NCBI GenBank assembly: GCA_963965975.1
Contig: OZ014423.1
Coordinates: forward strand, 2,914,001 to 2,978,000
Length of the DNA stretch: 64,000 nt
Source: Xestospongia bergquistia
Lineage: Eukaryota; Porifera; Demospongiae; Haplosclerida; Petrosiidae
Direction: 5' to 3'
Under the pieces are notes generated by a model. That model saw only the letters and a list, made by a program, of their open reading frames with translations, was not told the origin of the DNA and did no database searches. This document shows positions 12,912 to 55,796 of the stretch, piece after piece (position 1 is the first letter of the stretch; each line of letters opens with the position of its first letter). A program made the position numbers and the translations under genes.

Positions 12912-12941
12912 ACCAGATAGCTTTCCTTTCCTGTCTCTGAT

Positions 12942-18830: not shown

Positions 18831-19008
18831 GGAACTTGAAGTAGACTAGTGGGTGGAGGTAACCATAGTCGATGATATCACAGGGGTTTGTGAGAACCCT
18901 GCATTATCATCACTCGATTCAAGTTCATTCCCACTACCAGTACTTGTGATGGTACTACACATACTCGTGCTTACAGATTAAGTTTGATCATCACAACATT
19001 TGGCTGTA

Positions 19009-19160
19009 CACTGCAAAAACAGGTGTGGCACCTACCCACTAATTATAGTGGAAATCAATTGTCCCAAATACCACACTTCATTGAGTGGGTCCTATAGCCT
19101 CTGGTGGGATTATCCACTGAACAAGGTGGTATATTACCAGTAATAACAATGTGTTAATTG
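19009..19160. repeat. left terminal and subterminal repeats of CMC1
   Basis: After CACTGCAAAAA come short inverted motifs, including ccactaattatagtgg, aaggtggtatattacc and repeated ggtgg/ccacc. Such subterminal motifs bind the transposase or its partner protein in known CACTA elements. Confidence 0.6.
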
Positions 19161-19233
19161 GTTAAGAATGTTGTTAATCAAAAATACAATCAAGTTAATG
19201 AAATATCACAGTATATTTGTAAACAATCCACTG

Positions 19234-21424
19234 TTACTGATCAATGGTGACCTTTGTCAGAGCTGACAAAAGTGATGCAACCTTTGGATCAACTTTTGGT
19301 GGCACAATATCCAGAACAATGATCTCTAATGCCATAAGAGCCTTTCGTATACCTTTTGGATATTCTATGTTGAAGACATAAAACGCTGCCAGTAGGCCCA
19401 AAGGAGCCTCATTTACGGGTATACTGCATATAATTTGGCGTTCTACAACCAGAACTGCAGTTGAGTTTCGGATGAGCATAGTTGGGGTAGGGAGACTGAC
19501 TTGTCTGACAATACCATTAATATCAACAGATTCCTGTTGAAAAAAAACATAATAATTTTTATTTAAAAATTAAACTATACACTAATATAGTTATTTATTA
19601 CACATTAAAAAAAAACAATTATATTGTGTACTTGACTCACTGGGACGAATACAACAGCTTTCTCTACATCAGTTCTTTGCTTTCCGTCCCGAATTGTTAA
19701 AAGCAACAAGGGTAATGCATACTCGTATACTGTATCTGTAATGAGAAGAAAAAACAAACTGTTATTTATTCATCCATTACATAGTGATTTAACAATTTTC
19801 ATGTTTGTATCAATTCAATACAATGAAATGACATACTTGGAGAATTATTCTTTTGATTCAACTCCATTACTAGATCTCTAACATCTTTGCTATTGCATGA
19901 TTCTTTACAGAATGAGATAATCTTGGGAACCCACGAAGTCCATGCATTTCTTGCCAAAATAAGAATGTTAGGCTTTGAAATAATTTAACCTAGTTCTGAA
20001 ATTAACTAGGAAAGGATAGTTATGGATAAAAAATGTGTCAAAACTGAATTACATGTCTATACCTGACTGTAATGCTGGAAAGAGGGAAATGTGTCCAGCA
20101 GATCTCTTAATAATGGAGCTTTACGGACTACTTCATGCCGCCGTCGCTTAAAGGTAACTTCCATTAGTTCAGCCACAATGGATTCATTGGGTTTGCTCTT
20201 TTTATATTCAGCAGCCATAACTTTGATGTGATGTTGATATGACACATCGTCTTCACCATCGTCATCATCAAAAGTTAGGCAATTTTCTTTGTTTGCACTA
20301 GAAACTTTGACACGCTTCATGTTGCGAGGTGTTCTCCGAAAGTCCTTAAAACGACTTTTGAGGCCAGAAAGTATATGGCCCTAGCAATTAAGTTGAATGT
20401 AGATAAACAAAAATCAAAAACTTACAAATGGTGAACCATAAGATGCTCGTAGAAACACCCATCTTTCAATTGCCTGTATGGACACCCGCTCCAGTTCCTT
20501 TGAGGTTGGATACATTTTAAAAGCAAATACTGCTCTGGCAACAGCTGTTATGAATTTATCAAGCACTCTTGGAGGCATCATCTGATTTCTAATTGCTAGA
20601 CTAATCTCTGGAGTGAAATTGTCAGGAAAAGGAAAAGGATCAGGCAAAGATTTTGTCAATTTGTCGTTTTCTAATACGAATGGAGAATTGCTGGATTCAA
20701 GCTTCAATTTCTTCGAAGGAGGGGAGCTAATTGACATTCCAGAGACATTAGTTTCTGTCACGGTTAAAACTGGTTCTTCCTGCAACAAACCCCAAAACAA
20801 AGTATTATTCTACATTAAGTATAACTTCACTTACTTCTGTCAAGCATGGAAATAACACACAACATTCATCAGAGTTTCTTTCATTATCAGTATAGTCCTG
20901 ACACAAAAGAGGATTACATTTCTAATTTTAATATTACATTGCTTAGTGGCTTACTAGTGGTAAATCTGTTTGGGAAGATAATGACTCATCCTTCTTACTA
21001 CCATTTGTTTCTAAATCCTAAGTAGAAGAATGGTAGTGAAACACAATAGAGAGTACACAAACAGTTTCTACTGTAGTATTGTTGCTAGTACAATTTATAT
21101 ATTATAGGTTACATGCATAAAATTAAACAAGTTTTTTCATACCTCTTGAAGAGTTATAATGGCTCTGTGCTTTTGAATTAATTTTGCCTGAGGACCAAGA
21201 GTAGGAACAAGTTGCTTAAGTTGGCACTCATTTAGGAGAAGAAACACATCACCATCAATCTCATTTTCTAATGCAATGATATTTATAATAATGATATTAC
21301 TATTATAATAATTATTATTGTTATATTAACTCTAACCAATGAATGCATCCACGACACTTTCTTTAAAACCTTCCTTCTTAAGCCATCTAATAACAAAGCT
21401 TTCATCCTTTCCAGAGAAATCCAT
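19234..21424 (-). CDS. SAMD3-like protein, nine intact exons, inside CMC1
   Basis: Nine exons (21424-21337, 21267-21143, 21017-20955, 20897-20835, 20779-20426, 20380-20063, 19972-19837, 19735-19641, 19533-19234) join with GT-AG introns and unbroken phase into 513 codons. The N-terminus is a sterile alpha motif: FVIRWLKKEGFKESVVDAF, then ENEIDGDVFLLLNECQLK. An acidic and Ser-rich linker follows. The middle has MYPTSKELERVSIQAIERW and SGLKSRFKDFRRTPRN, and the C-terminus has FYVFNIEYPKGI. This layout is that of SAMD3-like proteins, abundant but poorly understood in animals. The start is the ATG before MDFSGKDES. It is transcribed away from the transposase across 280 bp. No damage is seen. It may be a host gene captured by the transposon or a standard second gene of this element family. 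Confidence 0.8.
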
Positions 21425-21704
21425 TATTTTCGGAAGCTTCGAGAGTTCAAGTACTATTCTTCTTTAACTTCAATTTTCACACGTCGAAAGTGACGTTCGG
21501 TTTTACGCATGTGCAAATGTCATAGAGATGCATGTGGTGTTGCTAAAATCCAGACATATACTATAAAATTTAATACTAAAATACAGCTGAAGACCTGAAG
21601 TGCGAAATTAAGAACAATACAGATAGAGGCGTCAGAGACAACATTATCTAATCGTTCCCAGGAATCAATAAACTGTGTGTGGCTACAGCTGCATGATTGT
21701 CATT
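21425..21704. promoter_or_regulatory. shared divergent promoter region of CMC1
   Basis: A 280-bp gap separates the start codons of the minus-strand SAMD3-like gene and the plus-strand transposase. It contains cacacgtcgaaagtgacgttcgg and acgcatgtgc-type blocks (about 21478-21515), which are GC-richer than the surroundings. A shared promoter is inferred from position only. Confidence 0.4.
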
Positions 21705-24700
21705 ATGTCTGACTTGGTTCACTGCTTTCTTTGTCAGTCCTTCAGAGGTTCCACTTTTGCAGATGTTGTTTGACACATTGGAACTGTACATGCTTTTGAA
21801 CCAGGTTTTAGTGTTGCATGCGGTATTCTTGGATGTCCTCGACGTTCTACATAACCATATACCAATTTTGCTTCATAAAAGAAACACCTTTATCGACATC
21901 ATCCTGAACTCTTGACAAGATATAATACAATAGGTAGTAGTAGTGTAGTTGTCCAAAGTTGTCATCCATGTTCTGTTGAAAATGGCACAGATTCTATCAC
22001 TGAAAATCAGAGTGATTTCTCATTTACTGTCTCTCATAGAGAAGACTTAAAGCGATCAGCAGCATTATTTATCTTAAAAACAGCTGAGGTTCATAAACTG
22101 ACTCTTACTTCTGTCAATGGGATACTTGAAGATGTCCAGCAACTTGTTGAAAGAACTGTACTGGATATTAGACGGCAAGTGGAATGCGCTCTCCAGAATT
22201 CTCAAATAGATGCGAATTCGATTCCAGCCCTTACTCACATTTTTGATGAAGAATACTTGCTTAATCCGTTCAGTGGCATCCAATCAGAGTATTTACAAAT
22301 GAAATATTTCAGAGACACATTCGGCCTAATTGTAAGCAGTAATTTTTACTTTTTATTAACTACTTTTTATTAAAAATATCTATATTACTATAGGAACCAG
22401 AAGAACGGGTATTGGGATGGTGTTTGGATCCAAAATCATCAGGGTTTAGCAGAATAAACCACATGTTCTATGACATACCGTTAAGATCCTCACTTGAGAA
22501 GCTTTTAAGAAATGATTGTGTTATGGAACAGGTATTACTTTATGCTTCACATGTGATATATCAATTCTTTTGTAGATCTACAACCCTCATAATTTATCAA
22601 ATGGCATGTTTGGAGACTATTGTGATGGCTCACAGTTTAAAGCACATCCACTTTTTTCAACTGATCCATTTGCCTTACAGATTCATCTCTATTATGATGA
22701 TATGGAGGTCTGTAACCCCCTCGGATCTAATACTAAGACACATAAATTAGGTTTGTGCAGTTTTTAACAAAATCATGTACTTGACAAAGTAATAATGTTT
22801 TGTAGGATTATTTTACTTTACCTTGGATAACATCAAACCAGATCTACGCTCAGCTCTCAAAACAATTCAACTATTGTGTGTGGTTCAGACAGTCTACATA
22901 ACGAAGTATGGTATTAATGAAATCCTCAGACCTGTGATGGATGTTATTCAAGAGCTTGAAAGTGTGACTTATCATGACATGACATAGTAATTTTTAGTAA
23001 TATTACTGATAATTGCCACTATAATAATATGTAATTTATGTAATTGATTTTGTAAATCATGTTTAGGAAGAGGGTATAACGTTTTTTGTTGATGGAGTTG
23101 AGAAGGTATTTCATGGTTCAATATCTGTTGTGTCAGGTGACAATCTGGCTAGCCAAGAGTTGGGAGGTTTTAAGTCTCTCAATGGAGCACTTAGAAAATG
23201 TCGTCATTGTATGGCTACTAGTGAAACAATGCAGACAAAGGTAATTGTTGTTTCATGATGATTTATTATAGGGAATTGCTTCATTCCTTTATTTTACCTG
23301 TATTTCTACTATTCCAGTTTAATGCCAGTAATTTTCAAATGAGGTCTAGACAGACCCATGACACATACTGTGCAAGGCTTAATGGTCCAATGAGTGAACA
23401 CATTGCAACAACTTATGGTATCTCAAAAACATCAGCACTTAATTTAAGTCGATATTTTCATGTAGCAGATGGTCTACCACCAGATTGCATGCATGACATA
23501 TTAGAAGGTGTATTACCATATGCGGTGAAGATGTTGCTACTGAGATTTGTTACTGAGCATCACTATTTTCATCTTGATGATTTGAATCATCGTATTGTCT
23601 CCTTTACATTTGGTCCTGTAGAGTCTAGTAGACCAAGCAGTATCTCTTCTGCAAGTCTCTGTTCTAATGACAAAACACTGAAGCAATCAGGTAAATTAAA
23701 CCAGCATAAATTAAATTTCTCATTTTAATAATCAAATTTATTTAGCATGTGAAATGTGGTGTCTGAGTCGTTACTTGCCATTGCTCATTGGTGATTTAGT
23801 CCCTGAAGATGATGATGATTGGCTAAACTTTCTTCGCTTGTTGGACATTGTTGACTATATTTTTGCTCCTGTGTGCTCAGAGGAAATTGTAGCTTATCTA
23901 GAACATCTCATTGAAACCTTTCTTTTAGAATTTAAGGCTAGTTACCCAGACAGCAGCATTACACCTAAGATGCACTACTTAGTTCACTATCCCCAACTCA
24001 TTCTGAGGTAATTAATCAGAAAGTTGTTTACAGTATTTAGTTTTTGATTTTATCTGCAAATAGATATGGTCCAGCAAGCCATTTTTGGTGCATGAGATAT
24101 GAAGCCCAAAACAATTATTTCAAACAAATAGCACATGTTGTAGGCAACTTCAAGAATATAGCCAAAACAGTTGCTATCCGCCATCAGCGTCTATCATGTT
24201 ACTATCTCTTAGATGATAACCTGTTTTTGGGCAATGATATTATCACTGGCAAGGGTAAGTATTTCAATGTGATAGTTTATATGGCTTATACTATTTCAAC
24301 GTTATTAGAGACTCTGTGTCAGATATCATCTCTGCCTCATTCAGACAAAATAAACATTCCTGGCACAACAGAAGTGTTCATGTATGTATACACAATTGGT
24401 AGTTTAAAGCAAAAACAATGACATGTATTTTTTTATTAGGTGTTCATGGGTGAAAAAATATCAAACTGTCTACAGACAAGGAAGCATTGTTATCCGAGAA
24501 GTTCATGATGACATGCCAATTTTCAGCAAAGTGGAATGCATTTTTTGTACAGTCAATAAAGAATTTTATTTGATAGTGAAGGACCTCCTATTCCCCGAAT
24601 ATTATTCCCACTTTCACTGTTACGTTTTTAATCAAACTAACCAAAATGATTGTTCATCTATACAGCTTATAAACATTAATCAGCTCAAAGATCACCACAC

Positions 24701-24782
24701 ATATCAATTACACCAAACTTTTGATCAACAATTGTCTGACTTATATTTCATTTGTTTGAAATACAATTTAATTAATGACTAA
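21705..24782 (+). pseudogene. CMC1 transposase, ten exons, three stops in exon 1
   Basis: Ten exons (21705-22331, 22394-22531, 22576-22750, 22806-22963, 23067-23240, 23318-23690, 23746-24007, 24064-24254, 24309-24381, 24440-24782) join in phase to 838 codons. Exon 1 starts MSDLVHCFLCQSFRGS, a C2H2-like zinc finger (later C..C..H..H), but has stops at 21771, 21852 and 21876. The core holds LYYDDMEVCNPLGS, GDNLASQELGGF with the CRHCMAT Cys pair, and ADGLPPDCMHDILEGVLPY. These are typical of CACTA-related DDE transposases of animals. Nine of ten exons are clean, so the stops are recent, or a downstream start is used. The enzyme would cut at the CACTG ends. Confidence 0.75.
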
Positions 24783-24998
24783 TTGTGTGTTCCATATATA
24801 TTGAAGGTGACGTTTTGTATCTTCTGTTGATAATTTTTTCTGAAGAACTTATTGTGATTATAAACATGGTCCATTTAACTTCAACAATACTGCTTACCAT
24901 GACCATATAGGTGTTTATAAGAAGATTTAAGTGGTGGGTAGACTTAGGACTTATCATCACTTCCATTTAATTATAACAGCCATGTGATTGATTCAAAT

Positions 24999-25836
24999 AT
25001 GGAGCAGATTGTACCATCCTGGACAGAGAAAGATAAAAAGGTAAACATCTTATTGAGCATATGTATTTATATTTCTGTGATTAGGAGAGTGTTATGTTTA
25101 CAAGACACATGTACTTTATTAGGCATGGAGAGTACATAAAGACGTCTGACGATATAACACAAATATTAACAGAATTAGGACAGACACAAGCACAGAAAAC
25201 TGGACAGATACTGACACAACAGTTAAGGAGACCTATATTTATTCACTCTTCGGACTTGACTAGAGCAAAACAGACAACCGAAATTTTAATGACGAACATG
25301 ACGGAACATGACCCAGTACTAACTTACAATGACATATTCCAAGAAGTTGGCTTTAAAAGCTGCCCACCATACATCACAACTGACTTTCATCATTTTACTG
25401 TAAGTTTATTCATTTATTTTGTCAATTAATTATGTAATATTTTGTTATTACTGTCAGAATGAGGCATATTACAAGAGAGCAGTAGATGCATTAAATAGTA
25501 TACTTTCTTTTAATAAAGAGTATATATGGTATGAAAAAGAAGCTACATGTATATATGTTTGTCATAAAAATATAATTCAGTTTCTTGTTGCAAGGTAAGA
25601 CGCTCTAATGTAGTGCTCAATAATTATTATAATTGATAAAAGTAATAACTTGTATACAACATAACCTTATGATCCATTATTATTGTTATTTATACTTGCC
25701 TAAACCTTTCTTTGCATCATGATTTTGTATTTTCCTTTGTATCAGGATTCTTAATGTCCCACTCATTGATATGAGGAAAGAACCATATCATCATTGTGGT
25801 GTTACATATTTTAAAGAAACAGGGAATAAAGTATAA
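24999..25836 (+). CDS. PGAM5-like histidine phosphatase, four intact exons, inside CMC1
   Basis: Exons 24999-25040, 25085-25399, 25458-25594 and 25746-25836 join in phase to 194 codons. The start is the ATG of MEQIVPSW. The phosphatase signature FIRHGEY gives the catalytic histidine (about residue 22), followed by FIHSSDLTRAKQTTEI, the phosphate-binding arginine region seen in PGAM5. The second histidine is in VCHKNIIQF (family: CH.NVIR). The C-terminal HHCGVTYF matches the PGAM5 end. PGAM5 removes phosphate from Ser/Thr or His on proteins; the human protein has an N-terminal membrane anchor that is absent here. The gene starts 217 bases after the transposase stop and lies well inside the transposon ends. 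It could be captured cargo; I see no damage. Confidence 0.8.
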
Positions 25837-26329
25837 AAAGTATATTACAACAAAACATATTATTAAGAAACTCATATTTAGTTCTTCAAGTTATTTTATA
25901 ATTATAGTACAATTATTGCATATATTCATATATTATAATTAATTTGACAATCATTATGATATTTCATTGATAAAAATTATTCAAAATTGTTATATTGCCT
26001 TACAATTTTCTGACATGATGACCAATTAGATATAAACAAACAATAGTGATATTTATCAATGGTAATGGCACTCGTGAACTAGCTGTGAAAGTATAACGTT
26101 TAACTTCTTTGATTGTTATATACTACTGATTATTATCCTCTCAAACAGAATTCTTCATTTACCTACAACTTTCAAGCTTTAGATATCAAACCTCATCAAC
26201 ACTACTGTGAGAGCTGAAAGTCTAAATTATGTATTATCCTATCTATAATTATGTTAACACTTAGCTTACCAATCCACACAGTTTATCAGTGGTTAGAAAA
26301 TGAACACACAAAAAGGTAAACTGCAGTCA
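25837..26329. other. non-coding part of CMC1
   Basis: No gene recognised between the PGAM5-like stop and the right subterminal repeats. Confidence 0.5.
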
Positions 26330-26485
26330 TGTCACGCCTCCATTGGTAATTACCACCTAATAGTGACTATCTATCACTTATGTAGTGCATTTGTTAGCAC
26401 AATCATTACCACCATAGTGGAAAATGAAATTGGTGTGAGTATTTCACCTTTGTGGTGGTGTTAGCCCACCTAAATTTTTGCAGTG
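26330..26485. repeat. right terminal and subterminal repeats of CMC1
   Basis: Carries ttaccacctaatag, attaccaccatagtgg and tttgtggtggtg before the inward CACTGCAAAAA end. The taccacc and atagtggaaa motifs are shared with the left end in inverted orientation. Confidence 0.6.
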
Positions 26486-26692
26486 TATATTCAGGTTTGG
26501 AACAGAAGTAATTGAAAAGCCTTTAGAAGCCATCTCAGTAAATGTCAGCTGCACTGACATGCATCATGCATGCGGAATGCAGGTTACACCCCTGAATAAA
26601 CTAATCATTGAATTCTAATGATATTCACATTTTCAATCTTGAAGAATGACGGGTGGCCACGGCCACCTAGACCCCCCCTAGCTACACCACTG
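26486..26692 (-). pseudogene. 5' end of the split hAT gene
   Basis: Read on the minus strand from the CAGTGGTGTAGC end, a G-rich run is followed after about 150 bases by an ATG opening MASKGFSITSVPNLN, which stops at the CMC1 boundary. The frame resumes at 19008 on the other side of CMC1. Confidence 0.65.
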
Positions 26693-28290
26693 ACTATCAT
26701 TTACTGTAACTGAATTAACCTTCCTAAAATCAATTCAAAATCTCCAAGATTGGTCTTTTTTCTCACCAAAACAACAATGTGAGACCAAGTGCTTTTGCTG
26801 GGTTGAATAATATTGTCTTTCAAATTTTTCTCAACCTCATTATTAACTTACACGCCTCAATGCTACAGAAAGACAGCACATAGGCTGTTTTATGGGTAGT
26901 GAAGTGATTTGATATTATGCCTGATTATAGAGATTTTTCTCCAGACATCCTGATTTTTCCATAGATAAATATTGGATTGAACACAATAATTCCTCTTATT
27001 TTAATGCATCCTCTTGAGAGAGGTTATCTGTAGGAACATTTAAAGCAAGAAATTGTTACATACTCTGGGGACTTTCCTCCAAATTTATGGTAGCTTTATC
27101 AGCAACAAGGTAAAAAAAGCAAACAACAAACCCTGTTCAATAGTCAATAATGGCATGATACTTCATAAGAAAATCTAATCCTAAAAGGCATTCCACTGGT
27201 AATTCCGTGATAACAACAAATTTATGCATTGTAGAGAACCCAACCTTAAAACTTACTAAACATCCACTGGTGCCACTATGTCAATGGGCAATCCATTTGT
27301 CCCAAATGCTTTGGTTTGCTGACTGATGATTAACAATGGGAACCTTGCCATCCATGACAGTTGAAATTGTAGCTCTGGTGTCAATAAGAAATGTTGTCGG
27401 AAATACTCCCACTTGTCCACATACACGTCACACTGTGTGAATAGTTTGATGATGATTGGGAGGGAAAGTCATTGAGTGTCCAGCCATTCCTCCCTCGCTC
27501 TGGCTCTTGGCCTGGCTGCTGCTCATTTAATGGATATCAATATTGATAATGACCCAAATCATTACATCTGTGAAATGAACATTGCTGACATCTCTACACT
27601 CCCATTGTATATGGTTAACTATAGTTTTGTTCTCAAGGGCAACAAAATGCTTTGTCAGCTGTTTTGCTGCTTGCTATAGCTATACCAGGGCCTCTTTGTT
27701 GCTAGCATTTCCAGGTTTGGCAAGATCTACCATTGTGCACACTTCCCACTAGTCCTCTAAGGTTGTTCCTCCAAACTGGGGTGCATACTGAACTTCTGTT
27801 TCTACCTTGGCAGCCTCCTCCATGGTACCAAGTCTTCCCTTCAGCAATACCTACTCTGCTATAGATGTTACCAGGTCCGTTAAAAATCGTTGAAGGAAGA
27901 ATATGCTTCTCTGAGTAACTTTCATAGCTCATTGGCCTAATCAACCACTTTGGTTTCCACTGTTTTCTATCGGTGAAACATTTGGCAGCAGACAAGGGGT
28001 CTTGGATCACATCGGCCTCTTCTGCCAGTGCTTTCCTTAAATTGTCTACACTTGCCTTAGATTCCTCTGGGAGCTCTACGTATGTATCTAACAATTTGCC
28101 ATGAAGTAAGGTCAGAATAATAGTGAGTTGTTTCCCTTCGTCCCATTCCTTTGGCCTTGCCACTAACTCCACTCTTGTCTATGTATGCTTGAGGTCTTCT
28201 TTCATAGTCTGGCAATGATATCTCCGCCTGTCCTGCCACAGTTATCTCACTCCTGACACCAGTATAACAAGTATAATGATGGACTGACAC
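26693..28290 (-). pseudogene. gypsy gag, protease and RT N-terminus (G2)
   Basis: Gag lies at about 28290-27702 and includes ARPKEWDEGKQLTIILTLL and LPEESKASVDNLRKAL, open for about 90 codons. Protease lies at about 27424-27138: FLIDTRATISTV, where the active-site DTGA is DTRA, then ECLLGLDFLMKY. The reverse transcriptase start lies at about 26850-26693: NIIQPSKSTWSHIVVLVRKK and the palm start ending VTVNDS. Many stops are present and the catalytic glycine of the protease is lost. Confidence 0.65.
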
Positions 28291-30299
28291 AACAACCAAT
28301 ATCTTTGAGACTAACATACAACGTTGTACAATGATTGTCATAATAATGAGTAATAGTGATGATACACCTACTAATGAATATACATACATTACAGCCTTAA
28401 TTTCAAAGTAAACAAAAGGATAAATTGTTTATCTCAAAGATGTCAAAGGTATATACCTTAAGGTACCATCCATACTTTATTGATAATAAACAAGAAGTCT
28501 GCCATATTTTCTGAATGTAAATATATATTAAATAATATTATATATTTAAAAAATCATCCTATAATTGTTTAAGAAGATACTGACTTTTAAGGTAGTATAA
28601 TTAGCTGTAATGTCAGGTAAAGAATATATCTATAGATTGCTACAATTATGTGCAGTGAAGCAAGCTATACAGTGAGGAGCTTTGAGCATGTAGTGGTAGG
28701 GTTAATAACATTCATTGGTTGCTGTGTGACTTGGCAGTTTTAGGATGTACTTTAATTTTGGTAATGACTATGTATAAAAATTGAATGAAATCAACAGAGT
28801 AGACATTCAAATATTATGCCCGGAGGTAATTATTATTATTTATTATACAATATGTTGTGGTGGATGTGTTCTCCAAGCAATCTGTTGTCACTTTTTTATT
28901 TACTATGTAATTAAATGATTCTTGTAATACTAGTGCAATTTATATATAGATAACAGTTGAGCATTTTAATAGTAGATGTTAAAGGTGCAATTATTATGAG
29001 TCCACTCCTTGTACCACACCTTAAATTTATCTGCTTCCTCCAACTGTGCTTCTGTTAATAAAAGAGAACAACTTTGAAGGAATCAACTGTCAGATCTGAA
29101 AGAAGGTCTACATTACTATCACATCAAAGGGATTGTGTAATTCCAGCCTTTGGAGACTAACCAATCTTGAACATGTTCTGCAGCCCAAATATCTTTATAA
29201 ATATGGTAAACTTGAATCTTCCCGTATCTCTCATTTGTACCTTTAGTCACATATATGTCACATGTTTATTACCACGTTATACCCTGCAAATATTTTTACC
29301 TCATTTTTTATATTAGGTACTTGGTGGTCATCCATTCAATAGTGCACTCTTGAATATTACAAACCATACAGTAACAATGAGTAACAGTGACTCAATTAAT
29401 CAAGTTAATCTGATCTGCAAGGACAAATAGCCCTCTGCTATATAAAGAATTTTACTAAGTTAACTCTTGAGTCATGTGTCTCATAGGTATTGTCAAATTT
29501 AATTGGCTTGAGGCATAATGTCACATTTGTGATATGAGAACCAAGAATGTTGAGCAAAAGCACCAGACTGCTTTTCACTTGAATATTGTGCCAGATAATA
29601 GTACACTCAAATTGAATATTATTTGTTACCTGCTACCACCTCAATACATTCAAATACTAAAACTATCTTTTTAAGAAATTTTTGAAAAATTGTTTTGTCA
29701 ATCCTTCCTTAAGTTTCAGAATTAAACAGATATAGTGTAAAAGGTAAGATTTTTTATGTTAAAGGATCAAACATCTTGAGTTTAACTGTAGTCAATTTTC
29801 GTTTTGATAACTTTATTAAAAACAAGGGAATTCATTTCAATACCACTTGAAAGATTTAATTTTTTCTGCACAAAACATAACTTTTTCTAATGCTAATTAA
29901 TATTTATAAAGTTGATATTTTGAAACCTTAATTTGAACATACTGTCTCTGCTTTTGTGAAGTTTTAAAACTAAAGAAACCTCCATAATTTTCACACTTTG
30001 CAACAGTAAACATGATTTTCGTTAGTGCTGCTGAAATAATCACTATAGTCAATTCAACTTGATTTTCATTACCATAAGTCCTTTTCTAATTCTTTCCTTT
30101 ACTCAGTATGTATGTACAAGTACACAAAGAGAATTAAAAGCAATTAAAATTAAAATTATGTATGTATAATACCTATCATTTATAGCTACTAAATTTATAG
30201 AAGGACAATCAGTAAACAGTTGTATTGTACATGTCAGTGATTTGAAGCAATGCTACTGTTTATTTAAATCTTTTTTTTTTCAATTTATTTCTTTATTTT
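28291..30299. other. 2-kb non-coding stretch
   Basis: AT-rich sequence without recognisable genes, tandem repeats or transposon ends. Confidence 0.4.
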
Positions 30300-30361
30300 A
30301 GATGTCAACAAGAATTTACTAGACAAAGCAATGAAGGAGGGTTATGCTACCACTAGGTGGA
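30300..30361 (+). pseudogene. possible host exon fragment at the DIRS edge
   Basis: After tttattttag the plus strand reads VNKNLLDKAMKEGYATTRWT and then meets the DIRS end. The wording (LL.KAL.EG.A.T.RTK) resembles the stretch just before a P-loop in NLR/ROCO-type GTPases, where it continues into a GxxGxGK motif. Here the DIRS sequence follows instead. The family guess is weak. Confidence 0.25.
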
Positions 30362-31205
30362 CTAAGTTCTATAATAAAATTTCTGAAAAACTGACCCAAA
30401 GGACCAGTCTGCTCCATTAAGGATGTCATTGGTTGTTATCCCCATGTTTGCAGCTGAGGTTGATGATGCCCCTCTCACTGAGTGGGCATTAAATATAGAT
30501 GTGTCCACACCTGCAGCTTCTAAGAGAGCCTTGCGACGGAGCATGAGGGCACTGGTTTATGAGGCTTAACAGTAGCAATAAGGAGTCATGTTTCCCCATT
30601 TCTGAGTAGCAATGTTCGTTTTTCATAATCCTTTAGAGTCCTGACAGGACAGAGATGCATGTCACTTGGGAATGAAGGGAAGAAGGCCCCAGGTATCTGT
30701 TTTGCAAGAGCACTGTGTAGGAACAATGCCCCATCTGGCTTGTACTGTGTTTCTGCACAATGTCTAAATGAGATAAGTCGGCTGACCTTGAAGGACAAGT
30801 GAGGGCAAGTAACATGGCTGTCTTCCAAGTCAGCTGTTTTAGTGATAGATCACAATTGTTGCCTATGGAGATAAGATAGTCCAAAACTATTTGTACATTC
30901 CATGTGTGACTGTATCTTAGAAGTAGAGGTCTGTCATTGAATATCCCCTTCAGTAATCAAGTAACCATTTGATGTTGTCCAACACTATAACCATCCACTC
31001 TCTCATGTACTGATGAGATGGCTGAACGATGGGCATTAATGGAGTTATACTTATAGCCCTCACTATGAAGGTGGGCAAGAAAATTTACCACGTTAATCAC
31101 AGGGCCCGAAAAGGGATTTGAACCCCCTCTATCACACCAGCTATGCCACCTCCCAAAGAGTGAGTCGTAACACTTGTTGGTTTTTGACCTCCATGATTTG
31201 AGCAT
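30362..31205 (-). pseudogene. DIRS tyrosine recombinase
   Basis: The N-terminal DNA-binding part (31205-30957) reads DSLFGRWHSWCDRGGSNPF and VNFLAHLHSEGYKYNSINAH. The catalytic part is broken into frames: TCPSRSADLSHLD with the first arginine, a central strand region, AHSVRGASS with the HxxR pair, and FQKFYYR with the nucleophilic tyrosine. Frameshifts near 30950, 30830 and 30570 break it. The enzyme would integrate the circular DNA copy by strand exchange. Confidence 0.75.
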
Positions 31206-31598
31206 GAGAATGGTAGCCTCTTGCGAAAGGTTCTGGCCTCTGTATCCCTGAGATGTGCCATACGGCCAATTGAGGCATCAACATCTCTTCCTCGTGATAT
31301 GTGCCCCTGAGAATCTTCCAAGATCAACGGGGGTGGCTTATTAGCATCTTCAGAACAACTGGGTACCAGGGTTGAGGCTTCCACACTGGGGCTATTAGCA
31401 CCAGTTGTACTCGTTGGGACTGGGCTTGAGATAGAACCCGACCTATTAGACACCAAGGGGGGGTTGGCATACCCCTTCCCAAGGGACCACCAATCCTGTA
31501 GAAATGCATCTGTTGCCATGGTATAGGGATTTGGCCGCCAACTGAATTAGACTTGGAGGTCCACTTCCAATTCGTCTGAATATGGCAGGGTTCAACTG

Positions 31599-32096
31599 CT
31601 AGTCTGTAAGGTCTATCATTGTTTTGATCCTGGGAGGTGTTGGGCTATGATGTGTATGTTCCTTTCCAGACACCACATCCACAGATTCCTTGCCAGGATT
31701 ATAAGCTCCCTTGAAACAGTTCCAACAAAGTTGTTGATGTAGGCAACCGCTGTTGTGTTGTCTATTATGAGGAGAACTGAATATGCCTGTCCTGTTCTCG
31801 GCAAATGTTTGAATGGCAAGAGTTGCTGCCTTGAGTTTCAAGCAGTTGATATGGCTCCTTCTCTCCCGATTGGACCAGGGACCTCCTGTCTTTTGGTATG
31901 GTTGTCCCACCATCTTATTTCGTTCTGGCACTCCTGGTCCAGTGTTAACTGAGCTTTGTAGTCTTAGAGACCCTTGTTCAACGCGACAGACAACTTCATT
32001 TGCAAGTGTCAGTAGAACAAAGTAGTCGGGGGGAATTACCCGAGAAGTGGTATTCATTTTCCCAATTAACTGTGCTAATGATCTGGCTGAAACCAC
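31599..32096 (-). pseudogene. DIRS RNase H region
   Basis: Begins with ARSLAQLIGKMNTTSRV, the connection that follows the DIRS polymerase. The one-frame-over fragment (31819-31616) reads VLLIIDNTTAVAYINNFVG, the RNase H D.TTAV motif of this group, and a later block reads ERNIHIIAQHLPG. Two frames are involved, so it is broken. Confidence 0.65.
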
Positions 32097-32107
32097 TTCC
32101 TCCTTTC

Positions 32108-32720
32108 CTAACCTACAGACTCCGCCCTGATTTTCTTTAGCTTATCTGATGGAAGCTTTATCTCCATCGCCACAGTGTCCAATGTGAATCCTAGAAATTC
32201 CATTATCTGGGATGGCTCCAGAGTGGACTTCTGCTTTAGTAGGAAACCAAGATTGTCGAGCAGGTAGCACATCTCGGCTGCCTGTTTGATCAATAGCTCC
32301 TTGGATTCTGCTAATACTAGAATATCATCTATATGTATGGTATCAATCATATCCCCATCTCCCTGTAGCAACACTGGCATGTTTGAGAGTCTTGGTAAAG
32401 ACCCATGGAGCCGACGAGAGACCAGACGGGAGGCAGTTGAACTGATAATCTAGTCCCTGAAACCTAAACCTGAGGTACTGTTTGTGGGTGTTGTGGATTG
32501 GTACTGTGAAGAAGGCATCCTTGAGGTCTACTTTAACCATCCAATCATTCAGTCTCACAATCTCTTTTAAAGTGTGGATCCCTTCCATCTTGAAGTGTTG
32601 TGTCCGAACAAACTGGGTTAAGGCCTTTAGATTGATGACTGGCATCCGACCTCCATCCTTTTTTGGGACGAGAAAAATAAGTTGGCGTAAAACTATCTGT
32701 TGATTTGTTACCGCAGACAC
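32108..32720 (-). pseudogene. DIRS reverse transcriptase
   Basis: Two overlapping frames cover the domain: FLVPKKDGGRMPVINLKAL, VKVDLKDAFFTVPI, LPSGLSSAPWVFTKTLK, and the catalytic box HIDDILVLA in the second frame. FLGFTLDT and ELPSDK-like residues follow. The DD pair is intact, but a frameshift at about 32350-32380 separates it from the N-terminal half. Confidence 0.8.
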
Positions 32721-33032
32721 TGCTCCTTTCAGTATGAGTTCTCTTACCTCCTCGAGGAAAAGGTGGTTCTGTTCTGGAGTATAATGTGGTGTGTGTAGAA
32801 TGCAATGTTGGTCTGGTTCTTTTAGGAAGTCTATGTAATACCAATGTATTGTGTTGAGGACCCCACTGATCCTTTGTAATGACTTCCCAATTTTCTAGGA
32901 AACGCTGTAGCCACCCGGCTAATTTGTGAGTCATAACTATAGAGACCACACTCATGCATACTAATTGATTTATTAACATACTTTTTTGAATTTCTTCCAA
33001 ATTGTAAAATGGATGTATCTGTGTATTGTATA

Positions 33033-34137
33033 TTAGCTCTTGTTTTGGAATCTGGTTTGCTGGTTGCCCTGTAGTCTGTTGGCATTGAATTGCTGACGGT
33101 CTCTGCTGCTCCTTGGAAATAGCTTGAGGCTCCACTTCGTCTGTGTTTCTGATAATATCCTCCCCTCGATTTCTGGGGGGGGAGGCAGATTGAAAAACTG
33201 CTTAGAGGGTCCCAATGGCACAGCTGACCTCATGGCCCTGACTTGATCAATATGCTCCTTGGACATTCTTGCAAACTCTGGGCCAAATAAGGCTGTAGCT
33301 GCTGATTTAAAATTTCCATCCTCCTGACATAGAGAAAGTAGAGTTTTATTCAGGCTTAGGGTAACTTTTTCATGCCTCAGGCATGAAATTCTAGCATTAG
33401 TATTCCCAATTAACTCCACAGCTGGGCTAATTGTGTCAATAGTGTCCTGGAATGAGAGACGATGGTATCTATTGTTAAGGTCCAAGATAGACACTAAAGT
33501 TGCTAAAGCATCCAGGACAAATGTCTGGATCTTTGCCAGGTCCTTGTCTGCAGATTTGACCTGGTGTGGGATCTCTGACTTTATATATGCATGCAGTTGA
33601 AGTGTTCTGGTAGCTGCTACATTGGGTAGAGGGTAGCGACCCCGTGCTTTCCTCCGCACACTGTTGGGCACACTCTGTGCACATTTTTCTTCCAAAAAGA
33701 GTTTAATCTTCTCCGAGACTTCTAAAAGCTCAGAGTCTTGTATCTCTTCCTCATCAGAATTGGCGGAATGGGGTCTTGACTATAATCAGGAATCTCGTTG
33801 GGATCTTCGTCCATCCTATCTGCCCATGACCAAACATGTGCAGTATCCCTACCCCAAGGGCTTCTGCTCCTGTAGTCAGTGCGAGCTCTGCTCCAAGAGT
33901 GTCTTTCCCTCTTCAGCTTTCGCTTAGCCTGTCTGCTCTGAAACCTAGCAGGGTTTGGAAATGAGTCATCACTCGAGTCACTGCTCATGGTATCCACATT
34001 GCTGTGAGGTGAAGTTTCTTTATCAGGGTTAGGTTTCTTCAAGTTCTCTACTTCCTCTTTTAGAACATCAAACTTCTCAGACAGAGACTTCATGAATGAA
34101 AGAATGTCTGAACTAGACTTATCCTGAGTAGACATAG
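33033..34137 (-). pseudogene. DIRS gag-like ORF1
   Basis: Starts at the ATG at 34135-34137 (MSTQDKSSSDIL) with a coiled-coil start (LSEKFDVLKEEVENLKK), an acidic/Ser-rich stretch and an Arg-rich stretch, to a frame break near 33700. The second part reads VRRKARGRYPLPNVAATR and a long helical region with LFGPEFARMSKEHIDQVRAM. DIRS ORF1 is gag-like and not otherwise characterised. The motif RRK..R..Y.(L/V)PNV also appears in the gag fragment at 44614-45111. Confidence 0.6.
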
Positions 34138-34490
34138 TAAGCTGCTTAAGAAAGATCTTCTTGAACACCTAGTGAACACGCTGTCAGCTACACACCCAAA
34201 CGTATAACCATGAATCATGAATGACATCATATATGAATCAATGCAGACACGTAATAATGATTCCCACATTTTGGGCAACAGACTGCTTCGTAAATTTTTC
34301 AACATTTGACGTCAGATCTGTGCACATACCTGATACGGTAATTATAACAAGATTCATTGCCATCCATAATTTTACTGTGGTTGCAAAAATTGACAACTGA
34401 AAATATTAATAATTGTTTTTTACACAAAAATTATTATTGCAACAATGTAATGAGTAAACATAATAGGAAGAAATAAAATTATGAATAAAA

Positions 34491-37400
34491 CTATTTGTTA
34501 CTTATACAATAAATATTATAATAAAACAAAGTATTGGACATATCATGTTCAAATGAAGAAGTATCTGATGTGAATTTACAGGAGTCAGAACAAGCATGGA
34601 CAACAGATACTGGTGTATGTATATAGGAAGTTGGAAAAATGTACAATATACCAGACAGTAACAGAACAGGACAGTCAAATTCATTGAGCAGTGGTGTTCC
34701 ATGAATCGTTGTCTGAGAGTGTAGTTCTCTAACTATACATATATCTGTTCCAGTACTAACAATTTTTCCACACGCTATCAGTATCCCAATATTAACCTAG
34801 GAGAGATATAAATTTACAGTAAAACGTTGTAATTAAACCTACTTGAGGTGATGTGATCTTTACAAAGTCACCTACGTTTACAATCATCCTTGTCTGAGAA
34901 ATGATCGCCTTGTGAGGAAGAATGTGGGATTCAAATGATATGTTCTCAGGAAAATATTGTATTGCACAAGATGAGTCTCGCATCAGTACTTTAAGTGTTG
35001 TGAGGGTAGTGGTATAGCACATTAAAGTTTCAATATGAAGCAGGCTACAAGAAACTGTTCCGTGAGGCAGCTAAATTAAAATGCATTAACTAATTTATTC
35101 AATTTAGTAAATACCTTTTGTAAGCATCCAGGTTGATAAATTCTCTTCTCTTTCATGGCATCCTTTGCTGGTACACAGTTTAAGTATGACTGAACTTGTG
35201 GAGACATGTAAAGATCTTGAAGTCCTTTTCCACATCTTGTAAACAATAGAATCAATTAAGTAGATATAGAATTATTCATTACTGTTTGCCATCAAAGTAT
35301 CCTCCAGAACAAATATACCGAAGGTGTTGAAGGATAGCAAAGTTATGCGCAAAATCCTTGCTTGGAGAGTGGTGGTTGCCATAGATATTCTGGGCTCTAA
35401 CCATTGAGTTAAAGGCCTCATATCTACAAGAGAACGTGTGAATTGTAAATTGTAAGATTAATGAGAAACCTTTTGGTATTATAACACTGGGTTGGACCAA
35501 ATTCAATTATACTCTCCACTAGATGTAGAACAAGGTGTGTCTTCAATCTTTTAGAATAAAGTGGCATATATTCAGCTGTTGATGATACAAATTGACAACA
35601 CAACTCCCTATATTGATCAGCATCATCAAGTCGAAAGTCAACACAGTATGCTAACTGAAAGACCTTTATTGTAGAAATGCAAAATGAAATATATGCACAT
35701 GTAAATATGGTAGACTTACTTTAGCCAGTTCAAACCAACATTTTCTTTCAGATTCTGACAAGTACGGTCTTATAATAAAAAGAGCCATTTGCATCCATGC
35801 TTTAAAACCACGACCTACAAAAGACTTATAATAATAACATATATTACCAGTAATACGAGTGGTAAAACCACAGTATGGAAACGACTTAATCCTAGCAAGA
35901 ATTTCCTTCTTCTCCTGACGAGATCTCTTATCCATAAATTCACGTAACATATATTTGCAACAACCCAAGAGAATTGTGTGTAGAGCTTCCACTGGTGTTG
36001 ATCTGTGGATAGTGTCACATGTGTAATAATACCAAATGTAATTAATTACTTAATTGTAATTAATTACATTTAATTAATTACATTTACATGTAATTAATTA
36101 AGAAATCCATTGAGAGGTTAAACATAGGATTATCATCTTCTCTTATACCATAATTTTTTCGTAAAGACTTTCTTGATGCCTCTGTTGTCTGTTCAGATAT
36201 GTGTGCAATCTGGCTTATAGTCAGTTGCTTCGAGAGAGGCTGCCCAAGCACAGTTGCATCAGATGTCTAGTAGCAAGAAATTATACATCAACAAAATGTG
36301 TATACTAACCATACAAAGTCGGCAAAGTTTCACAGCAGTACTACCTTGATGGTTAAGAAGTTCTGAAGCTCTGACATTGTCACAGAGTAAACATATGACA
36401 GGAGCAATTACAAGAACATCAGTCTCTAAAATGAATCATACACGCAAACACCTTTTTCTAGCAAACAAAGGTCATTAACAATGGGACCACTGATTTCTTT
36501 GGCAGATATGCGATTTGAACAGGCAACGAAGTGTATGTTGGTAAATGCTTGAGCTTCATGTTTTGGAAGGTTAGCCAGAGATAGACACCACAAATCAAAT
36601 TTGTTCCACTTTTTTGATCTGTTTCCACTTGAGTTGTATCATCAGAGTACAAAAACAATGGAACTATAACAATCTGTCTACCAGCAGCAAAGGATTTAAG
36701 ATGATGTGGTTCAGTGTAGCACAAGTATTCCTAAAAGGAACAACTATTTAAGGTATAAGTAAGTACATTTTGACTGTAGGTACTGTGATTATCACCTAAT
36801 TTGAAAATTATGTCTGAATGTGCTGTTAAAGTCAATGCAACTTACTTGACCATCAACTGGAGTAAGTGTTTGTGTGGGAATATCAAGCTTCAGTAACTGT
36901 GATGGAGGTGATGTTATTCTAATGAGATCACAATTTCTTATCTCATGTCTGCCACAGATTACAAACACTGAGGAATCGGGATATAAAGTAGAAACCTCAG
37001 GATGCAGTGTCCACATTTGATTAAATGGCAGAATTAACTCAACAATGACAAAGGTGCACTCTTCTTCTTCGTTAGATAAATATTGAAGAGACATGTCCAT
37101 TTAATTCAAAACTTACTTTCTTGAAGAACTTTACAGCTTTACCGTAAGTCAATCCCAAAGTACTATGATTAAATATTATAAAATCATTTTGAAATACATG
37201 ACCAATTTCAGTAGCAATCATTGGGGACTGAAAATCAGTATGCCATCTTTCAGCATGGTAGATTTCACTGTTAAATGTAAGAAATAGCAAATTGTTCTTT
37301 CTTCATTGTATGCTCACGTGACGTATGTTTTAGCAGCAACAGGAAGACGAATAAGTTGTCTAGAAAGCATGGGATTGGAGAAAACCCTTTGTACAAATGA

Positions 37401-37621
37401 GGATGGTAGATTTACATGAAATGAGATGCCACTTGGTGAATAGCTCTATTTAAGGAATTTTTTTTATGTTAGTATCTTCATGATGTCTTTAATATGACGA
37501 TCATACTCGGATTTGTACATAAACTTCAGTTCACATATCTCACAGTAAAAAACGAAAGGAATAAATATAACAGTTAACAGGGACTTTTCATCGTACCTGC
37601 ATCAGTACTAGCACAAGCCAT
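34491..37621 (-). pseudogene. CMC2 transposase, multi-exon, probably one frameshift
   Basis: It starts with a short exon, MACASTDA (37621 down). A Cys-x-x-Cys/His finger-like block, FYCEICELKFMYKSEYDRH, is near 37540. Later exons carry YHAERWHTDFQSPMIATEIG, VPLFLYSDDTT, LLCDNVRASELLNHQG with CRLCM, VEALHTILLGCCKYML, ITGNICYYYKSFVGRGFKA and FNSMVRAQNIYGNHH. The C-terminal exon ends at a stop at 34491. These blocks are those of a CACTA-related DDE transposase group different from CMC1. A one-base shift near 36630, right after the SDDTT block, separates two matching frames, so this copy is probably inactive. Exon borders were checked only in part. Confidence 0.65.
36035..36102. repeat. TAATTAATTACATT repeat in a transposase intron
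   Basis: Palindrome-rich copies of taattaattac and attaattaag lie back to back between two coding blocks of the CMC2 transposase. It can fold into several hairpins. Confidence 0.7.
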
Positions 37622-37754
37622 CTTTTCAAGCGAAGGTGGGAGCTTGATAAATGAGAATGCTCAAAATTCAAAACGTTGTCAAAAAGAGCATGCGCAGAGA
37701 AGAATTGAACTGCGTGCGTGTTGCATGGAATCGTTGCAATTGAGAAACTGAAGC
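37622..37754. promoter_or_regulatory. shared divergent promoter region of CMC2
   Basis: Only 133 bases separate the transposase ATG (minus) from the ATG of the partner gene (plus). It includes gagcatgcgcagagaag and ctgcgtgcgtgttgcatgg (about 37686-37730), GC-richer than the neighbourhood. A bidirectional promoter is inferred. Confidence 0.45.
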
Positions 37755-38982
37755 ATGTCTCGAATTGAACTCAGTGATCAAGCCAGACGGCATGCACTCT
37801 TCCCTTTACTTGACTTCATCGTGAAATCTTCACATGCTCAGCAGAAGCAAATGGATAGCTTTAGGATAGCTTTAGTATCAGACTCCTAAAAGTTGAAACA
37901 GACTGCTCGCAAATCAGTGAAATGCAAAAAGAACTGCAAAAAATGATTAAAAACTTACACATATTCTATACAATGAGTTCTAATCAATATTTTTACTATA
38001 TATATGGAGGGTCCTTTAAGGCATGGTATAGCAGATCTATACTGTAATTCCCTTCTAAGAAATCCCAGTGAAGAGAGCATTACTGTAGGAACATAATACT
38101 AAAATCTAATGTTTTATTGCACTAATATTATATCACAGAGAATGGTGAGGTCAGTTCTAAGGGAGGAAGTACAAAAGAAACACATTTTAAATGGAGCTCT
38201 NNNNNNNNNNNNNNNNNNNNNNNNNNNNNNNNNNNNNNNNNNNNNNNNNNNNNNNNNNNNNNNNNNNNNNNNNNNNNNNNNNNNNNNNNNNNNNNNNNNN
38301 NNNNNNNNNNNNNNNNNNNNNNNNNNNNNNNNNNNNNNNNNNNNNNNNNNNNNNNNNNNNNNNNNNNNNNNNNNNNNNNNNNNNNNNNNNNNNNNNNNNN
38401 CAAGTATGTAAAGGATCTAGTATCAGATTTTAGGAGTGAGGAAAGGCGAAGAGTGAGTTACGTGTGCATGATTTGACTTGTAATCAATACTGTTATGTAT
38501 TTATATAGGTACTTTTTTTAATTGGTAAATATCTGAACCAAGGCACAAAGGAGCTAGCCAAATTGATATTGACGGGATATTTAAAGGCCTCAGAGGACTC
38601 ATACTCGAATTATTACAGAAATGTAGTGCTTCTGGTAGGCCATTAAGTCAAATGCAAGCTCATAATCTTTCATTTGTCTTTGCAGAGAAAATACATACGA
38701 GAAACACCATCAGCCAGAAAACTCAATGTCAATGGCATGTTCAATTATTTTCAAAAGTGGGCAGTGGAAAATTATGGACCTTCTGGTTCACCTTCCAGTG
38801 AAGAATGGAGAGAAATATTGGAGGAGGATGAGTCTCAAGACTACCGGCATAAGGAAGTGATACGTTCTGCAGAGTCACTAGAAGTATTAGCAGTAGCAGC
38901 TAACGAAGAAATGGGACATGTTGACCAGGAGCACCAAAGTGATGTTGAGAGTGATGACTCTGACATCTACAATTATGTCTAA
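37755..38982 (+). pseudogene. CMC2 partner gene: coiled coil with acidic tail
   Basis: Starts at the ATG of MSRIELSDQARRHALFPLLD. An 11-base tandem duplication (ggatagcttta at 37853-37863 and 37864-37874) shifts the frame into a stop; without one copy the frame runs on into VETDCSQISEMQKELQKM, a coiled coil. Later exons read RMVRSVLREEVQKKHILNG (up to the gap at 38201), KYVKDLVSDFRSEERR, LIGKYLNQGTKELAKLILTG and a last exon ending 38982 with an acidic tail, DVESDDSDIYNYV. The gap hides coding sequence. No known domain is recognised; a DNA-binding accessory factor is only a guess from its place beside the transposase. Confidence 0.5.
38201..38400. other. 200-base assembly gap
   Basis: All bases are n. 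The length of exactly 200 suggests a placeholder. Coding sequence of the CMC2 partner gene is lost here. Confidence 0.98.
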
Positions 38983-39145
38983 ATTAGGTGTGTCATCACT
39001 TATTAACACATTTAAACTACATTTGTCATATTTGACTTGATGATTCATTTACTCTTAACCCGAACAAATAACATCATATTTAGCTACAATGTTTAGTAAT
39101 ACAAAGAAAGTAAGCTACATTGTAATTATAACTACTCTGGAAAAT

Positions 39146-40236
39146 CTATTTTCCATATGGAGTAGTCTTCATCCTTATGTTTGGGCCATAGTGATCTATG
39201 TTTGCAACTTGCAAGTGCATCACCTGGTATACTAAGGTTACTTGGAGAATTGTACCACTATAATACATATATAAGATAGCAACTATATACAGCAGATGAA
39301 ACAATTGACTGTTATTTACCTTCTCACATTCTAAGCAAGGTCTCTTAGGTAGCTTTTGCCTAGTGATCTTGTCTCTAAATCTAGCAATTACTGGATACTC
39401 TGGCATATTCAGGTCTTTCAGTAACTCTATTGTGACTAATGAATAATGACTATTACAGAGAACCAGGTTACTTTTATCTGGTGGATTAAACCAATCTTTT
39501 CTCCTATACATATACAGTATTATATTAATGTAAAATGCGTACACTAGCTAGCATACATTTTCTTAGCAGGTGGCTCTTCAATGGACACATGAACACTATC
39601 TTTATCATTGTTGTCACAAGTACTGTCAAAACACAAAAGTCACTGTGCAGTACAGTACATAATCTACATACACTTTGTTGACATCATTTTCTTTATTGTC
39701 CTCACTGTATAAATACACATGATGCAAGTAAAATAGAAATTCATGTTTGAACCTTGAACTACTTGAGCTAGAACCAGCACCCACTGCTTCCAGTTTAGTT
39801 AATTTTCTGAAATATTATCACTACATAATAAATGCTATATTTGACTTTTTAGCTTACTGTTTCAAGTTTTTCAGATTTAGTCTTAGAATTGTGTTTTCTC
39901 TGCCTCTTTCACAAAATTGTTTCTTCAGAGAGTTGACAACACGTATATATCTGTTGAAAAAGGGACAATTACAAGAGTTATACTATTTAAGTTACTGTTG
40001 CTCTTGACGTTTCAATTCAGCCTTCAAAAATGTCTCTGATTCTTCAAGTTCATATACTCTACTTTCTAACACTATGAATTATATGATATATAAAGGCAAC
40101 AGGCAATAACTATACACTTATACTTGCACATTTCTTTCTAATGTCTCCAGACCTCTTGAATCAATGACAGATCTGATCTCATACCTGATGCATATGCAAA
40201 CCCAGTACAGTCTGAATCATTGCAAGTCTGTATCAT
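39146..40236 (-). CDS. uncharacterised small coiled-coil gene inside CMC2
   Basis: Short exons with GT-AG ends follow one another on the minus strand. The first is 40236-40185 (MIQTCNDSDCTGFAYAS), the second 40144-40124 and the third about 40071-39996 (LESRVYELEESETFLKAELK, a coiled coil). Then come RVVNSLKKQFCERGRENTIL, a Ser run, HVSIEEPPAKKM, KDWFNPPDKSNLVLCNSHY and PKRPCLECEK with a Cys-x-x-Cys, ending MKTTPYGK at 39146. No stops were met in the joined exons I followed. No domain family is recognised. It lies between the partner gene and the right end of CMC2 and points inward. Confidence 0.5.
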
Positions 40237-40380
40237 ACTGGATACGAACAACTAAATCAATGTGTAAATCTGATATGTATCACATTGTCTACACCACGGA
40301 AATGATACGACAATGACATCATCTTGATACATACAAAATTTCATTCAGTACCGAGTCATACATGACCGTTTTAGGGTGTG

Positions 40381-40505
40381 TAAGAAAAAGGCCGAAGAGT
40401 GAGGACGGAAGAAAGGACACACCCTTGGGCGTGTCTTATGGAAATTAATATTGTTAAGCTGTAAATTAAGCTGTTTTTACTATGAGACTGAGCCTTCTGA
40501 AATAT
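40381..40505 (-). promoter_or_regulatory. 5' leader of the split DIRS element
   Basis: On the minus strand this holds a tcggccttttt block (about 40388-40400) and a 24-base block at about 40480-40505. Both also occur, in the same order, at 44403-44426 and 44581-44592 ahead of the second DIRS gag. A short hairpin, acacgcccaagggtgtgt, lies between. Confidence 0.55.
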
Positions 40506-54687: not shown

Positions 54688-54699
54688 GAAAGGAACTGG

Positions 54700-55794: not shown

Positions 55795-55796
55795 CT

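Follow-up and report, generated by a model that had tools for sequence, protein, structure and literature searches.

We analysed a window of 64,000 nucleotides from the sponge Xestospongia bergquistia (contig OZ014423.1 of assembly GCA_963965975.1, positions 2,914,001 to 2,978,000), in which two DNA transposons, here called CMC1 and CMC2, were delimited. As shown in Table 1, each carries a transposase gene, a partner gene in divergent orientation to it, and a third gene of host type near one end, which is PGAM5-like in CMC1 and CtIP/Sae2-like in CMC2. Searches for further copies covered a genome of 146 Mb in 21 contigs; contigs are designated C1, C2 and so on, and fetched loci L001 and so on.

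Table 1. Positions of the CMC1 and CMC2 elements and of their genes in the window
Feature	Positions	Strand	Remarks
CMC1 element	19009..26485		Ends CACTGCAAAAA...TTTTTGCAGTG; TA at 19007-19008 and 26486-26487
CMC1 partner gene	19234..21424	-	N-terminal SAM domain (SAM_2 E 2e-5) and uncharacterised C-terminal region
CMC1 transposase gene	21705..24782	+	EnSpm/Plavaka-type; zinc-finger-like first exon
CMC1 third gene, PGAM5-like histidine phosphatase	24999..25836	+	Exons 24999-25040, 25085-25399, 25458-25594, 25746-25836
CMC2 element	34191..40380		Ends CACACCC...GGGTGTG; TA at 34189-34190 and 40381-40382
CMC2 transposase gene	34494..37621	-	Plavaka/EnSpm-type; N-terminal C2H2-like finger; N-terminal part incomplete in the window copy
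CMC2 partner gene	37755..38982	+	Without known domain; contains N run 38201-38400
CMC2 third gene, CtIP/Sae2-like	39132..40236	-	243 codons, open from ATG to stop
Exons of CMC2 third gene	40185-40236, 39996-40071, 39858-39950, 39672-39806, 39557-39622, 39320-39503, 39132-39257	-	
Sae2-like C-terminal domain of CMC2 third gene	39135..39400	-	CxxC, SCKHR, WKIDFP

Read together with the flanking duplications, CMC1 runs TA-CACTGCAAAAAC...TTTTTGCAGTG-TA, and both elements have CAC...GTG termini and TA duplications, as is typical of EnSpm/CACTA-Plavaka elements (CA(C)...(G)TG with a duplication of 2-5 bp). The ends of CMC2 were fixed by two further copies, L009 on C3 and L010 on C2, whose alignment with the window copy extends from TA to TA and whose flanks are unrelated. 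Both copies contain the transposase, the partner and the third gene in the order and relative orientation found in window CMC2, and all three genes together with the TA duplications were present in 3/3 end-to-end CMC2 copies (window, L009 and L010). The right end of CMC1 was examined in six copies (window, C3, L035, L024, L025 and L034), and GCAGTG followed by TA was found in every one of them, with four distinct flanks, since C3 and L035 share theirs, as do L024 and L025; in L025 this end lies about 20 bases beyond the end of the alignment. The left ends of two further CMC1 copies (L026 and L028) are degenerate and without TA, and several CMC1 copies are internally deleted, such as L024 and L025, where the right end and a part of the partner remain. 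A first reading of the window, made from its letters and open reading frames and referred to below as the sequence-only reading, had assigned CAC ends and TA duplications to both elements, which is borne out by the window ends and the further copies. A loose pattern search for transposon ends was unusable, as the reversed control yielded more matches.

The same reading had described the two transposases as unrelated-looking. Pairwise BLASTP, however, aligned them with an E value of 1.2e-7 over 457 columns, and hhalign of 14 CMC2-type homologues against the CMC1 transposase gave a probability of 97.5 and an E value of 6e-12, which rules out unrelated transposases. In a block-level alignment, the CDN/GDN, CRLC/CRHC, LHTILLG/MHDILEG and RYE/RFE blocks of both proteins were in register; members of the superfamily have D, D and E residues, with C(2)C and H(3-4)H between the second D and the E. 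The best-scoring named relatives of the CMC2 transposase came from the demosponge Amphimedon queenslandica (54 and 59% identity), followed by those of Ephydatia muelleri and Halichondria panicea, and fungal proteins were matched as well. Neither window transposase model matched by itself in the Pfam scan; a homologue of the CMC2 transposase, Em0003g509a (probably from Ephydatia), matched the Pfam Plavaka model with an E value of 1e-6, and the CMC1 transposase was placed in the superfamily through its alignment with that of CMC2. On the basis of these alignments, the two transposases are distant homologues within the EnSpm/Plavaka (CMC) superfamily, and CMC1 and CMC2, as judged from termini and predicted proteins, are two families of the cut-and-paste EnSpm/CACTA-Plavaka superfamily with TA duplications. 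The ends and duplications common to both elements are those to be expected within one superfamily. At one further locus (L021, C7:3892000-3901900), a CMC1-type and a CMC2-type transposase were found about 3 kb apart in opposite orientation.

The distance between the start codons of transposase and partner, from ATG to ATG, was measured as 280 bp in CMC1 and 133 bp in CMC2, in agreement with the divergent arrangement and the gap of 133-280 bp that had been claimed. We scanned 28 stretches, made up of both elements of the window and 26 loci that had been fetched or joined, for this divergent pair. A CMC2-type transposase was detected in 13/28 stretches, six of which keep the N-terminal exons, defined as a match starting by residue 71 of the N-terminal CMC2 transposase query. 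The divergent partner was present at 6/6 of these loci (weakly at L015, E 0.031) and at none of the seven with a shortened transposase. In the CMC2-type loci on C1 and C12, identity is about 50% for the transposase and, for the partner, about 46% (C1) and about 29% (C12); with identities that low, the pairing of transposase and partner is therefore old. A CMC1-type transposase was found in 8/28 stretches, and the SAM partner was divergent in five of the eight, a count that is biased because all of these loci except the window and L021 were chosen via partner or third-gene matches. At L030 and L031, the CMC1-type partner is about 30% identical. Comparison of the predicted proteins shows that both families keep their divergent partner, down to identities of about 30%. 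The sequence-only reading had staked its proposal on complete elements not being mostly transposase-only, and it holds in this respect because of the six CMC2-type loci with N-terminal exons and because none of the four elements followed from end to end (window CMC1, window CMC2, L009 and L010) carries the transposase alone.

As had been claimed, the two partner proteins are different: they show no similarity to each other (E 1.0), and the SAM domain is found in that of CMC1 only. The CMC1 partner gene has about 7-8 exons, one small exon being uncertain, and a protein search with residues 85-460 of its product gave no match at 0.001 among 7998 scored candidates. Assignment of this SAM protein to a 'SAMD3-like' family was not confirmed, and the literature joining SAMD3 and transposons looks unrelated. 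The CMC2 partner gene is interrupted by the 200-base N run; since L009 crosses the site without extra bases, the run is probably a scaffold join.

Seven exons, bounded by canonical splice sites in the window copy, make up the third gene of CMC2, whose predicted product resembles CtIP/Sae2/Ctp1, the cofactor of the MRE11-RAD50-NBS1 (MRN) complex, in its CxxC, [RK]HR and W..FP motifs and perhaps in a coiled-coil-like N-terminus. The host CtIP gene was located with a human sequence as query (E 0.027), and the C-terminus of its product matched the Pfam SAE2 model (E 4.2e-7). Compared with this host C-terminus, the transposon-encoded protein is identical at 24/77 positions (BLASTP E 5e-11), and the local alignment score of 120 stands against a mean of 26 and a maximum of 60 in 20,000 shuffles. 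The CxxC, a C.H pair and W.I.FPE are common to both proteins. Past the CxxC, both genes have a phase-0 intron at the identical position, between CLECEK and WY in the transposon and between CPDCIK and WF in host CtIP. This shared intron is hard to explain otherwise than by descent from a CtIP gene that was taken up as genomic DNA. A heptad-like stretch was noted by eye at residues 18-80, where Pfam matches were weak and below cut-off, and the only match found in protein collections was a 147-residue fragment (P0001, E 0.1). A search of the genome with the Pfam SAE2 model returned nothing at E 1, the host CtIP gene included, probably because an intron splits the domain. Two host CtIP-like loci lie on C10 (6441k and 5669k), the second matching the first at 60-90% by exon piece. 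Three copies of a shortened CMC2 right end, about 19 kb apart (L017-L019, C1:17.68, 17.70 and 17.72 Mb), carry N-terminal exons of the CtIP-like gene, together with a small inverted piece. A coiled-coil-like frame in the C12 element (L037:3420-4187) resembles the N-terminus of the CtIP-like protein weakly (E 3.6).

In the window copy, the third gene of CMC1 has an uninterrupted frame between ATG and stop. Its product matched Pfam His_Phos_1 (E 3.3e-13), and three of its four matches in the PDB were PGAM5 (best E 5.8e-10). The RHG/RHS, TRA and CH blocks, which we take to be the catalytic residues, were in register in the alignment with PGAM5. As regards a mitochondrial transmembrane N-terminus of the PGAM5 type, the gene model begins about 18 residues before the phosphatase domain, and upstream exons are possible. 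The gene adjoins the right end of CMC1 in four copies, in all of which the frame, from the second exon on, has no internal stop. A single-frame PGAM-like match at C5:2900798 is probably a host gene.

That the third genes are merely host genes lying between transposon ends was ruled out, as the alignment reaches the ends in several copies and the flanks differ. Judged from these alignments, the PGAM5-like gene of CMC1 and the CtIP/Sae2-like gene of CMC2 are host-type genes inside the element in several copies. The sequence-only reading had placed a third gene near one end of each element, which is the case, although the place is not the same: it lies on the side of the transposase in CMC1, but on that of the partner in CMC2. 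We infer from these opposite sides, beyond the transposase in one element and beyond the partner in the other, that a core of two genes common to both elements gained its third gene on separate occasions. Of the single gene plan proposed for both elements, the divergent pair stands, whereas the partners, with no similarity, and the opposite third-gene sides do not conform to it; the idea of a conserved multi-gene type with exchangeable accessory genes is upheld, within two families only, as regards the divergent core and the differing host-type third genes.

In maize Spm, TnpA and TnpD are both required and TnpA recognises subterminal repeats, and non-homologous TnpA-like proteins have been described in Spm-related elements, according to PMC1636069 and PMC2613891. 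We are inclined, with some reserve, to view CMC1 and CMC2 as members of one superfamily that have a divergent two-gene core with a TnpA-like partner, and third genes that aid transposition or break repair. By analogy with Spm, the partner would do the job of TnpA, binding the ends and bringing them together, and might control the shared promoter region between the divergent genes; in the two families, non-homologous partners would fill the same role. For CtIP, tetramerisation through the N-terminus and binding and bridging of DNA, with binding by the C-terminal RHR motif, have been reported (PMC6344080). With its coiled-coil-like N-terminus and a predicted DNA-binding C-terminus of the MRN-activating type, the CtIP-like protein would work with the host MRE11 complex at excision breaks. 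There it could open or clean the ends and steer repair to resection and sister copying, by which the donor copy would be restored, and the gene may thus help the transposon control the processing of its own breaks. The PGAM5-like phosphatase might favour transposition by altering how a protein of the host or of the element is phosphorylated, which is the weakest step of the scheme.

Several observations weigh against the scheme. Both window transposase genes are damaged: the first exon of the CMC1 transposase has three in-frame stops (at 21771, 21852 and 21876), and in the N-terminal part of the CMC2 transposase two blocks of 434 and 186 alignment columns, filled in other copies, are empty, presumably through loss in the window copy. 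The CtIP-like gene is broken in L009 by two stops and a lost splice acceptor and in L010 by a frameshift and altered acceptors; with two of its three copies broken and both window transposases damaged, the elements are therefore not fresh copies. The Pfam SAE2 model gave no match to the transposon CtIP-like protein up to E 10. The ratio of nonsynonymous to synonymous substitution rates (dN/dS) was not clearly below 1 for either third gene, at about 0.55-0.69 in three pairs of CtIP-like copies (Fisher p 0.34-0.63) and 0.45-0.66 in six pairs of PGAM-like copies, one of which gave an uncorrected p of 0.039 and the others 0.10-0.46. The distant CMC2-type elements on C1 and C12, read for about 4 kb past the partner, contained no CtIP-like gene at E 0.05. 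The subterminal motifs of which the sequence-only reading had spoken were not recovered either, as no 6-8-mer stood clearly above dinucleotide shuffles in the outermost 230 bp of CMC1 or CMC2, the right end of CMC1 having been set 2 bp too far out in this test. Finally, it is conceivable that the assembly brought together the halves of the CMC2 partner gene on either side of the N run, although L009 is continuous there.

Gene capture without function by transposons is well known, and the third genes might be chance host pickups with no role in transposition, as in Pack-CACTA or Pack-MULE elements. The two host CtIP loci and the probable host PGAM-like gene in the same genome agree with such an origin, as do the host-position intron of the CtIP-like gene, which points to uptake as genomic DNA, and the dN/dS values of both third genes. 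We nevertheless find this explanation rather doubtful, because the CtIP-like gene is complete and not a fragment (it has a start, a stop, a coiled-coil-like N-terminus and conserved C-terminal residues), because it keeps the family residues while being far from host CtIP, and because the PGAM-like frame is free of internal stops in 4/4 copies. It is improbable that the CtIP-like protein acts instead as a dominant-negative or decoy that becomes part of the tetramers of host CtIP and lowers resection, with the result that breaks go to end joining and the cell escapes arrest or death. A coiled-coil-like N-terminus and a C-terminal domain joined by a short middle (243 residues in total, human CtIP having 897) could poison mixed tetramers, but the CxxC, KHR and W..FP are kept, and a pure decoy would not need the C-terminal family residues.

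A more specific version of the repair role starts from an acidic KDEDYS in the CtIP-like protein, at what we take to be the place of the human cyclin-dependent kinase (CDK) site T847. CMC2's own CtIP might free the repair of excision breaks from the host cell cycle, a copy being gained per jump through resection and donor copying. This seems to us quite unlikely, and the underlying idea of a phosphomimic is weak because host CtIP, too, has no canonical TP at that position. According to PMC6503098, phosphorylation of T847 activates CtIP in S/G2, and T847E is active in G1 as well. As to the partners, the two plans could be alike through common ancestry of the divergent pair, the partners being homologues too diverged to be recognised. 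Homologous transposases and partners in the same place and orientation fit this origin, against which stand the E value of 1.0 between the partners, their different lengths (463 and about 200 residues, from incomplete gene models) and the SAM domain in one only; we lean against it.

CACTA elements with two proteins are already known, as are EnSpm elements with accessory genes; what is unusual here is a host-type third gene on a two-gene EnSpm/Plavaka element. Maize Spm/En and plant CACTA elements resemble CMC1 and CMC2 in their CAC ends, in a transposase of the same superfamily and in a second, non-homologous protein, which in theirs is required. Spm/En, however, makes TnpA and TnpD from one alternatively spliced unit and has 3-bp duplications, whereas in CMC1 and CMC2 the two genes are divergent, the TA duplications measure 2 bp and a third gene, of host type, is present. 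TET/JBP genes have been reported on some EnSpm, Plavaka and ESTA elements of fungi (Kojima 2025, PMC12730594). With our elements, Plavaka/ESTA share a Plavaka-type transposase, TA or 2-bp duplications and, in some cases, an extra host-derived gene, but they are fungal, the ends of Plavaka are TGT..ACA or CATCA..TGATG, and the accessory gene encodes a DNA-methylation dioxygenase instead of a repair cofactor or a phosphatase (PMC12730594). SmTRC1 and its relatives are similar in having animal hosts, 2-bp duplications and a transposase with other proteins; they differ in a Transposase_21-type transposase and in extra proteins that arise by alternative splicing, and no CtIP- or PGAM-like gene is described for them in the accessible part of PMC1636069. 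Giant algal EnSpm elements likewise combine this superfamily with accessory genes, but they are larger and their accessory genes are mostly of unknown function; non-autonomous families with non-transposase genes only are also mentioned there (PMC12477816). From CtIP/Sae2/Ctp1 itself, the CMC2 protein differs in being transposon-encoded and short and in its KDEDYS. In the literature, which was covered by title and abstract opening and with few subscription journals, no DNA transposon with a CtIP-like gene came to light; nor did one with a PGAM5-like gene, in a search that covered histidine phosphatase among other topics and not PGAM5 alone.

Besides CMC1 and CMC2, the window contains pieces of retrotransposons. 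Copia-like pieces lie at 10931-13568 on the minus strand (RVT_2 E 3e-16, Pol_BBD E 7e-24). On the plus strand, Gypsy-like frames for gag-protease and integrase (rve E 1e-15) and a further gag-protease piece lie at 53362-57287 and 46723-47604. The minus-strand frames between CMC1 and CMC2 (31097-34168) look by eye like an old retroelement, and three of them, when tested, gave no Pfam match at 0.01.

Cut-and-paste transposons depend on the host to repair the breaks they make, and the repair path decides whether a copy is gained. If the third gene of CMC2 is read correctly as a CtIP gene, CMC2 would be, as far as the literature was searched, the first known case of a DNA transposon with a gene for a cofactor of the MRE11 complex. 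An element that brings its own CtIP-like gene would make control over the choice of repair at the donor site directly testable, and the natural divergence of this protein, which is small, keeps the CxxC and KHR and has no canonical CDK-type site, would show which parts of CtIP suffice.

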